Origin: Alphaproteobacteria bacterium
Lineage (GTDB): Bacteria > Pseudomonadota > Alphaproteobacteria > Caulobacterales > Aquidulcibacteraceae
Direction of reading: 5' to 3'
DNA length: 64,000 bases
NCBI GenBank assembly: GCA_016124655.1
Contig: WGNI01000003.1
Location: forward strand, 186,001 to 250,000
This document shows positions 45,012 to 47,234 of the stretch, piece after piece; within the stretch, counting starts at the first letter, position 1, and every line of letters begins with the position of its first letter. The position numbers and the translations under genes were made by a program. A model generated the notes under the pieces. That model had not been told where the DNA came from. It did no database searches and saw only the letters and a program-made list of their open reading frames with translations.

Positions 45012-45239
45012 ATGAGCGAACAAGCCGCAGAAGGGATCTGGATCGCGATCGGCGCCTACGCGCTGATCGGCGCGATGATCGCAGCGCTTGTTCTGCCGTT
45101 CGGCCTTGGCCGTTTCGACGCCAACGCCGCGCGCGCGCCCTGGCGCGTGAAACTCGTCTTGGCGCCGGGCATGATCGCGCTCTGGCCGATTGTCGTGCGT
45201 CGCCTCGCCGGCGCCAAGCCTGCGGAGGATCAACGATGA
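45012..45239 (+). CDS. Small membrane protein, first gene of the Rieske operon
   Basis: 75 residues from ATG 45012 (the longer frame passes through repeat C). Two membrane helices: WIAIGAYALIGAMIAALVLP and LVLAPGMIALWPIVVRRLAG. No recognised family. The stop overlaps the ATG of the next small gene (ATGA, 45236-45239), so they are co-translated. It is the first of four coupled genes. Confidence 0.7.
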   Translation: MSEQAAEGIWIAIGAYALIGAMIAALVLPFGLGRFDANAARAPWRVKLVLAPGMIALWPIVVRRLAGAKPAEDQR

Positions 45240-45373
45240 CGCGCACGCAACGCCGGTTTCATGTGCGGCTCTGGAGCGTGATGGCGATCGTGCTGTTGGC
45301 GGTGTTTGGCGCAGCCTTGATCGCGCGCGAACGCATCGCCGAAACGGCGCAGGCTTTAGCGCGAAGCGCCTGA
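45236..45373 (+). CDS. Small single-helix membrane protein, 45 residues
   Basis: ATG 45236 to TGA 45373, coupled to the previous gene by a 4-base overlap and 6 bases before the Rieske gene. One membrane helix (LWSVMAIVLLAVFGAALIA). Basic N terminus. Too short for most annotation cut-offs; position makes it probable. Confidence 0.65.
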   Translation: MTRTQRRFHVRLWSVMAIVLLAVFGAALIARERIAETAQALARSA

Positions 45374-45379
45374 CGCCGC

Positions 45380-46408
45380 ATGGGCCACGTTTACAAGAAT
45401 GTGCAATGGACGCCGTTCAAGAAGGCCTATGATCTGGGCTTCGCGGCGGGGGTTGTCGCATTTATCGCCGTGTTTGTGGCGGCCTCGCTTGTGTCGTGGC
45501 CGGCGGCGCAAACCATCAGCATCCCGCAAATCCTGATCCGCGCCTTTGGCGCCTGCGCGTTCGGTCTGTTGCACGTGATCTTGCTGATCGGTCCGCTGGC
45601 GCGCCTGGCGCCGCAGGCTTTTCTTCCCCTGCTCTACAATCGCCGCCATCTCGGCGTTGCGTGTTTCGTCGTGGCGCTGGCGCACGCAGCGCTGGCGACC
45701 ATGTGGTATCACGGCTTTTCCGATCTCAATCCGCTCGTGTCGCTCTTGGCGTCCAATCCGCGCTATGCCGCCATCAACGGCTTCCCGTTTGAAGCGCTCG
45801 GCGTCGCAGCGTTGCTGATCCTGTTCGTGATGGCCGCCACCAGTCACGATTTCTGGAACGCCAATCTTGGCCCCGGCGTCTGGAAAGCGCTGCACATGGC
45901 GGTCCATCCCGCCTACGCGCTGCTCGCGGGCCATGTGCTTTTGGGCGCCCTGCAAACCGAACAGGCGCCGCTCTATGCGGGCCTGACCGGCGCCGGCGCG
46001 GCGCTGGTCGTCGCCGCCCACCTCGCCGCCGGCCTGCGCCAGATGCGCAAGGATCGCGTGCAGGAGCCGTTGTCCGACGCTTGGATCCGCGTCGGCGCGC
46101 TCGCCGACATCGAAGACAAGCGCGCCGTCATCGTCACGCCCCCGTCCGGCGCGCAGATCGCGGTCTTCCGCGACGGCGAAACCGTTCACGCCATCTCCAA
46201 TTATTGCCGCCACCAGGGCGGCCCGCTCGGCGAAGGCCGCATCATCGACGGCTGCGTCACCTGCCCCTGGCACGGCTTTCAATATCGTCCCGAAGACGGC
46301 CGCTCTCCGCCGCCCTATGCCGAGCAAGTGCCGATTTTCCGCACCCGCCTGGAGCAGGGCATTGTGTTCGTGCATCCCGATCCTGAATTCGCGGACGCGC
46401 GGGCATGA
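45380..46408 (+). CDS. Ferric reductase-like membrane domain fused to a Rieske [2Fe-2S] domain
   Basis: 342 residues. Residues 1-220 carry about six membrane helices, with His in HLGVACFVVALAHAALATMWYH split by the helix and HMAVHPAYALLAGH, a layout like ferric reductase-type cytochrome b. Residues 240-330 form a Rieske domain: YCRHQGGPLGEG (CxH) and CVTCPWHGFQYRP (CxxH). Together they suggest electron transfer from the membrane to a Rieske centre. The C-terminal overlap (ATGA) couples it to the next gene. Function unknown. Confidence 0.8.
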   Translation: MGHVYKNVQWTPFKKAYDLGFAAGVVAFIAVFVAASLVSWPAAQTISIPQILIRAFGACAFGLLHVILLIGPLARLAPQAFLPLLYNRRHLGVACFVVALAHAALATMWYHGFSDLNPLVSLLASNPRYAAINGFPFEALGVAALLILFVMAATSHDFWNANLGPGVWKALHMAVHPAYALLAGHVLLGALQTEQAPLYAGLTGAGAALVVAAHLAAGLRQMRKDRVQEPLSDAWIRVGALADIEDKRAVIVTPPSGAQIAVFRDGETVHAISNYCRHQGGPLGEGRIIDGCVTCPWHGFQYRPEDGRSPPPYAEQVPIFRTRLEQGIVFVHPDPEFADARA

Positions 46409-47160
46409 AGACGGATCGCTTCTTCGTCGGCTGGGAGACCGCGCCCGACATCAATCGCCGCGGCTTTGCTCTGGGCGCGGTTGCGCTCACGCTGGGCGGC
46501 GCGGGTCTCGCCGCAGCGCTGGCGCGCGCGCAATCGCTCCCGCAATCCGGATTCTGGGATCAGGGCGATGTGCGCGACTGGCGCGGCGTGCTGCAGCGCG
46601 CGCCCTATCCCATCCTGCGCACGACCGACATCGACGGCGTCGCCCGCACCGCGTTCCTGACCACCTCCGGCAAAACCTCCGTCGCGCCGCGCTTGCCGCG
46701 CGATCTGGAAGGCCCGGTCCTCGTGCGCGCCAGCCTCATCCGCCGCGACGACGCGATCATGCTCGCCGCGATCGACGGCGCCGATTGGATCGCGCCCGAT
46801 CCCGGCGGCGCACGCCTCGCTGCGCCCGCGGAAGAAGATCTGGGGCCTGTTTTCGCGATCGGTGAAATACTTGACGCCAAGTGCTGGTTCGGCGCGATGC
46901 GCCCGGGCTTCGGCAAGACCCACAAAGCCTGCGCCGCCTTGTGCGCGCGCGGCGGCTTGCCATTGGCGTTTTGCGTGTCGCGCAACGGCGTCTGCGGCGA
47001 AGCCTCCGACGATCCGCTGTTTCTCGACGCCGAAGGCCGCGCGCACGGCCGCGCCATTATCCCCTATGTCGGCGACCCAGTATCCGTAGAAGGCCGTCTC
47101 GTGCGCGTCGGCGACGTCACCCAACTGCGGGCAAGTTTAAACGCGATCCGCAGGCTGTAG
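46405..47160 (+). CDS. Cys-rich Tat-like secreted protein, partner of the Rieske reductase
   Basis: 251 residues. NRRGFALGAVALTLGGAGLA with the RR-x-F pair looks like a Tat-type signal or anchor. The C-terminal half has a striking Cys pattern: LDAKCWFGAMRPGFGKTHKA, CAALCARGGLPLAFCVS and GVCGEA, five Cys plus a His, suited to a metal or Fe-S site. Overlaps the Rieske gene by 4 bases. No known family recalled with certainty; export of a redox cofactor protein fed by the upstream reductase is inference. Confidence 0.7.
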   Translation: MKTDRFFVGWETAPDINRRGFALGAVALTLGGAGLAAALARAQSLPQSGFWDQGDVRDWRGVLQRAPYPILRTTDIDGVARTAFLTTSGKTSVAPRLPRDLEGPVLVRASLIRRDDAIMLAAIDGADWIAPDPGGARLAAPAEEDLGPVFAIGEILDAKCWFGAMRPGFGKTHKACAALCARGGLPLAFCVSRNGVCGEASDDPLFLDAEGRAHGRAIIPYVGDPVSVEGRLVRVGDVTQLRASLNAIRRL

Positions 47161-47168
47161 CGCCGTTT

Positions 47169-47234
47169 CCTTCTCCCCTTGTGGGAGAAGGTGGCCGAAG
47201 CGAGCGCGTGCGAGCTGAGGTCGGATGAGGGGTG
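47169..47234. repeat. Dispersed REP-like palindrome, copy 2
   Basis: CTTCTCCCC-TTGT-GGGAGAAGG stem followed by GTGGCCGAAGCGAG and TCGGATGAGGGGTG. Same type as 13054-13103. It lies in the gap between convergent genes (Rieske operon and pccA) and could end transcription from either side. Confidence 0.7.

Follow-up and report, generated by a model that had tools for sequence, protein, structure and literature searches.

Within the window, i.e., the whole 64,000-nucleotide stretch of alphaproteobacterial DNA that was analyzed, four co-directional open reading frames (ORFs) on the + strand span positions 45012–47160 and constitute a real, conserved unit. This operon is read here, at roughly even odds (a probability of about 0.5), as a transmembrane electron conduit that would lead from Rieske-tagged donors in the cytosol to a metal or thiol site, perhaps one for copper, on the periplasmic side in its last product, P0003. 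The genes are, in order, sp1 (P0004; 45012..45239; 75 aa), encoding a small membrane protein; sp2 (P0001; 45236..45373; 45 aa), a one-helix membrane protein; P0002 (45380..46408; 342 aa), a ferric-reductase domain (FRD) of six helices that carries a Rieske domain at its C-terminus; and P0003 (46405..47160; 251 aa), an N-terminal membrane anchor with two predicted tandem OB folds. The sp1/sp2 and P0002/P0003 junctions are 4-base overlaps, both of them ATGA, and sp2 and P0002 are separated by 6 bases, exactly the coupling described in a sequence-only reading of this DNA. The operon is flanked by a lipoyl-ligase (LplA/B) gene on one side and a convergent biotin-carboxylase gene on the other. Just past it, at 47161–47225 of the window, lies a palindromic intergenic element (CTTCTCCCCTTGTGGGAGAAGG...), present in a single copy in the window, that resembles a dispersed alphaproteobacterial repeat.

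Of the 299 genomes searched in the order, 66, belonging to 22 of the 54 sampled genera, encode P0003; beyond the order, it was found in other alphaproteobacterial families, on Rhizobium plasmids, and on two contigs labelled betaproteobacterial (L043 and L045). The plasmid search returned Rhizobium only, where the unit is retained with an SDR gene adjacent and a gene for a TPP-binding protein further away. In each of the 52 loci of the initial set, tblastn placed P0002 beside P0003, and sp1 holds the same place in most of them, which puts the four-gene unit far beyond chance. The Rieske-FRD protein is encoded in 40/40 genomes with P0003 and in 0/40 related genomes without it (raw counts, uncorrected for relatedness), so the genes do travel together, as had been anticipated. 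At the class level, 17 genomes besides that of the window encode a full-length Rieske-FRD protein, 15 of them together with a full-length P0003, and the remaining two represent one genus. Two contigs labelled Acidobacteria/Sulfopaludibacter (L046 and L047) have gene neighborhoods that match Hyphomonas loci and are probably mislabelled or misbinned.

Judged from their conserved motifs and their fusion into a single ORF in several lineages, both tiny genes can be taken as real, and their conservation is as the sequence-only reading required. The sp1 protein has two hydrophobic segments (residues 9–27 and 48–66) and the motif R..L..PG..LWP....R, and its homologues are 31–51% identical. A small ORF homologous to sp2 precedes the Rieske-FRD gene in nearly all loci, including L149 and L150; its product typically begins with M-(K/R)-R-x-x-R-x-x-H-x3-W and continues into a single helix. 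One continuous ORF covers both sp1 and sp2 in L107, L123, L125–L127, L129–L131, and L141, with a length of approximately 125 residues wherever its start can be placed, and it is therefore likely that the two make up a three-helix subunit.

P0002 matches the Pfam Ferric_reduct model (PF01794) over residues 57–182 with 49.2 bits against a cut-off of 28, which places it in the FRD superfamily, and the Rieske model (PF00355) over residues 235–308 with 54.9 bits against a cut-off of 20.3. Topology analysis gives six hydrophobic segments. The Rieske ligands C276/H278/C295/H298 (CxH...CxxH) are invariant in all 58 homologues, as are H90, H102, H156, H172, H185, and H214, and the fusion of Rieske and ferric-reductase domains recognized earlier is thereby confirmed. 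With all four ligands intact, the Rieske domain putatively carries a [2Fe-2S] cluster. The canonical heme histidines in TM3 and TM5 are present (H102, H172, and H185), while R88 occupies the first canonical FRD position, as in YedZ and STEAP. These residues fit the YedZ/STEAP rule for heme-ligand positions given by Zhang et al. (PMC3591440), so that at least one heme is expected to be bound, and a second one involving H90 is possible. Since there are six segments with a positive-inside charge pattern, both termini would lie in the cytosol, which is consistent with a cytosolic Rieske domain. The C-terminus holds the Rieske domain only, without a Pfam match to FAD or NAD(P)H domains.

The AF2 model of P0003 (mean pLDDT 84.8) has an N-terminal helix (residues 18–42) and two OB folds, the second of which was modelled equally well alone (mean pLDDT 84.5). 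Model scans assigned P0003 to no Pfam or NCBIfam family; specifically, it has neither the SCO1/SenC domain (PF02630) nor a DUF2946 match, and it is judged to be an acceptor family lacking classification in these two databases. Sequence searches of P0003 and its short paralogue against solved structures gave chance matches only, and Foldseek with both AF2 models gave generic OB folds with no match at E ≤ 0.001. The best VIA-align matches of both models were all OB-type (Z up to 6.3, rmsd 3.5, 83 aligned), so both halves of P0003 are assigned, as models, to the OB fold at the level of superfold similarity only. The second OB contains the arrangement D157..C160..M165..H173..C176xxxC180, in which D157, C160, H173, C176, and C180 are kept in 67/67 full-length homologues and M165 in 66/67. 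From the fixed pattern of five cysteines and a histidine proposed earlier, C160, C176, C180, and H173 are thus conserved, whereas C194 and C199 are not. The Tat-like signal (RRGF in the window protein) fails as a defining feature, with twin arginines in 47 homologues and none in 20 of the 67; P0003 as a family therefore lacks the conserved motif of Tat substrates, and Tat export may still apply to the window's own protein.

The second OB of P0003, the C-terminal Cys-OB domain (46825..47157), also exists as a free-standing exported protein of approximately 145 residues, to which it is linked by a profile match with a probability of 97.6 and an E-value of 3.3e-12. No full Cys protein turned up that lacked its Rieske partner, but its C-terminal domain does occur alone. 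In the alphaproteobacterial loci L082–L095, the short gene forms a periplasmic cluster of two, often three genes together with a second, Cys-OB-like gene (~180 aa) and SCO1/SenC. The second gene, which is distantly related (hhalign E 3e-9), adjoins the short one in 14/14 loci, and SCO1/SenC does so in 9/14; scanned members of both Cys-OB families gave no Pfam or NCBIfam match. CxxxC is a proposed copper-chaperone motif of CutF and SenC (PMC8456105). The SCO1/SenC context of the short paralogues is the main pointer to copper and amounts to a hint. No SCO gene was found near the Rieske-FRD operon itself; the window's genome encodes SCO proteins elsewhere, and a copper-oxidase assembly pathway is therefore likely to be present.

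The conduit reading builds on the gene content, co-occurrence, domain make-up, and conserved ligand residues described above, and the conserved unit of a Rieske-FRD protein and an exported Cys/His protein supports the membrane electron route suggested from the sequence. From these observations, we infer its topology, direction, complex formation, donors, metal, and final substrate as follows. The products of sp1, sp2, and P0002 would form the membrane part. The cytosolic Rieske domain, standing where NOX and FRE enzymes have their FAD/NADPH module, would receive electrons from cytosolic donors, and heme b, held by the conserved TM3/TM5 histidines, would move them across the membrane to P0003, the anchored periplasmic double-OB protein. 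Its C160/M165/H173/C176xxxC180 site would most likely bind a metal, with copper as the best guess, or act as a reducible thiol pair, and would serve a periplasmic reduction; P0003 may reduce a metal or thiols, or deliver copper. A rather unlikely alternative to this scheme holds that P0003 binds no stable metal and that its CxxxC dithiol, together with C160, keeps the thiols of periplasmic Cys proteins or copper chaperones reduced, analogous to the CcdA/DsbD route. The CxxxC of SCO proteins needs reduction before copper binding, the short Cys-OB paralogues sit with SCO proteins, and two of the three invariant cysteines of P0003 form a CxxxC, all of which would suit such a reductant; however, the invariant H173 and near-invariant M165 beside them resemble metal ligands, and no thioredoxin-fold match appeared in the structure comparison.

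The most striking new finding is that three unrelated soluble redox enzymes, each with a Rieske domain of its own, are encoded beside the membrane Rieske protein. When the genes around 40 Rieske-FRD groups were clustered, two specific partners emerged, both with an N-terminal Rieske domain: a glutamate-synthase-like protein (Rieske-GltS) and a TPP enzyme (Rieske-TPP). Rieske-GltS, the commonest neighbor, was found in 15/40 groups, mostly directly upstream, and Rieske-TPP in 12/40. Rieske-GltS occurs in 22/40 genomes with P0003 and in 1/40 without it, the latter being a partial match, while the corresponding counts for Rieske-TPP are 20/40 and 0/40 (Fisher about 1e-7 for these co-occurrences, phylogeny not corrected for). 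The former has an FMN region and, read by eye, a C-x5-C-x4-C motif as in GltS. The best solved match of the latter is PoxB, with an alignment that ends at residue 530 of 572 and leaves the C-terminal stretch unmatched. The window's own genome (85% complete) yielded ordinary GltS and TPP enzymes only, with neither Rieske fusion found. The third enzyme, a Rieske-NADPH-dependent-FMN-reductase fusion, follows the Rieske-FRD gene directly, in the place of the Cys protein, in one genus (L149 6257–7381; L150 3362–4474). Its contigs carry the core of three membrane genes with no P0003 found on them, and delivery to P0003 is therefore not the sole use of the core.

Among the other neighbors, SDR genes (8/40 groups, in mixed positions) were too unspecific to be retained as a partner, and the neighbor clusters of the 40 groups contained no recurrent Mo enzyme. 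MNIO (MbnB/TglH/ChrH)-DUF2063-DoxX genes lie directly upstream of the operon in L034 (1876–4027; the same as L104); a bufferin-like link was set aside since they are confined to this one lineage. Several lineages encode YHS-domain proteins or patatin-YHS fusions close to the operon, as seen in L111 (13032–13493, with an apparent signal peptide), L098, L037, and L045, and in L044, L047, L042, and L139. A search of the literature on Rieske domains with glutamate synthase, or on Rieske and ferric-reductase operons, returned nothing relevant.

In many relatives, the donors of the conduit would be the Rieske-fused enzymes encoded alongside it (GltS-like, PoxB-like, and FMN-reductase-like), and these neighbors suggest an interchangeable electron-docking system. 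Taken further, and only tentatively, the operon may represent a modular bus in which electrons would enter an sp1-sp2-FRD-Rieske core by Rieske-to-Rieske contact with a PoxB-like TPP oxidase, a GltS-like FMN/3Fe-4S enzyme, or an FMN reductase, and leave it to a new family of periplasmic OB acceptors with Cys/His/Met metal-binding sites. The reverse direction, from a periplasmic substrate through P0003 and heme to the cytosolic Rieske domain, would feed reductive amination by Rieske-GltS and has in its favor that GltS enzymes consume electrons and that Rieske-GltS is the commonest neighbor. It is considered quite unlikely since the remaining neighbors are PoxB-like, hence electron-yielding, and FMN-reductase-like, and the characterized FRD proteins NOX, FRE, STEAP, and MsrQ send electrons outward, according to Zhang et al. 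and a further report (PMC3591440; PMC5676040). The outward direction of the conduit is preferred on these same two grounds, outward-moving FRD relatives and electron-yielding neighbors.

MsrPQ (YedYZ) resembles the operon in that a membrane protein with a six-helix FRD is encoded together with a partner that is exported, and P0002 shares the MsrQ-type set of R88, H102, H172, and H185. Unlike MsrPQ, the operon adds a fused Rieske domain and two tiny membrane subunits, and its exported partner is a Cys-OB protein instead of the molybdoenzyme MsrP. The likeness to MsrPQ drawn earlier is thus fair as an analogy and does not extend to the families, since P0002 scores 38.7 bits against the cut-off of 130 of the MsrQ model (NCBIfam NF003831) and P0003 has no molybdopterin domain. 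That the operon is an MsrPQ-like repair system with P0003 itself as the terminal reductase, e.g., of oxidized Met or Cys residues, is suggested by the shared layout but is very doubtful with P0002 so far under that cut-off and P0003 lacking any enzyme family. Large antisense ORFs overlap 45012–47160, as is usual at 67% GC, and might suggest that the four ORFs are antisense or chance products of GC-rich sequence and form no operon; cross-genus protein conservation, invariant ligand residues, and gene fusions refute this explanation.

The NOX, FRE, and STEAP metalloreductases likewise pair a heme-binding FRD with a redox module in the cytosol, and STEAP and FRE reduce Fe3+ and Cu2+ according to Zhang et al. 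(PMC3591440), whereas P0002 has the Rieske [2Fe-2S] domain in place of an FAD or NADPH domain. A Rieske-bacterial FRD fusion was already listed from domain predictions as architecture ‘M4’ (Zhang et al., 2013; PMC3591440); the text consulted names neither an operon nor partner proteins and assigns it no function, and the M4 legend also mentions FMN. The periplasmic copper-chaperone proteins SCO1/SenC and CutF share a periplasmic CxxxC with P0003, and SCO adjoins the short paralogues, but P0003 differs in its predicted OB fold and in its lack of a SCO or DUF2946 match. CcoG and CrpH, which are candidate copper reductases for heme-copper oxidases (PMC13038864), embody a similar concept, a membrane-bound reductase with heme or Fe-S that acts for copper in the periplasm, though by name the protein families differ.

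If the conduit reading is true, the operon would represent a bacterial route for exporting electrons across the membrane, with a Rieske domain in the position of the NOX-type flavin/NADPH module and with cytosolic donors that plug in, and the exported acceptors would be a family without an entry in Pfam or NCBIfam. A function would also be assigned to a conserved alphaproteobacterial operon, including two tiny genes that may be missed in annotation, and to the wider Cys-OB family that adjoins copper chaperones.
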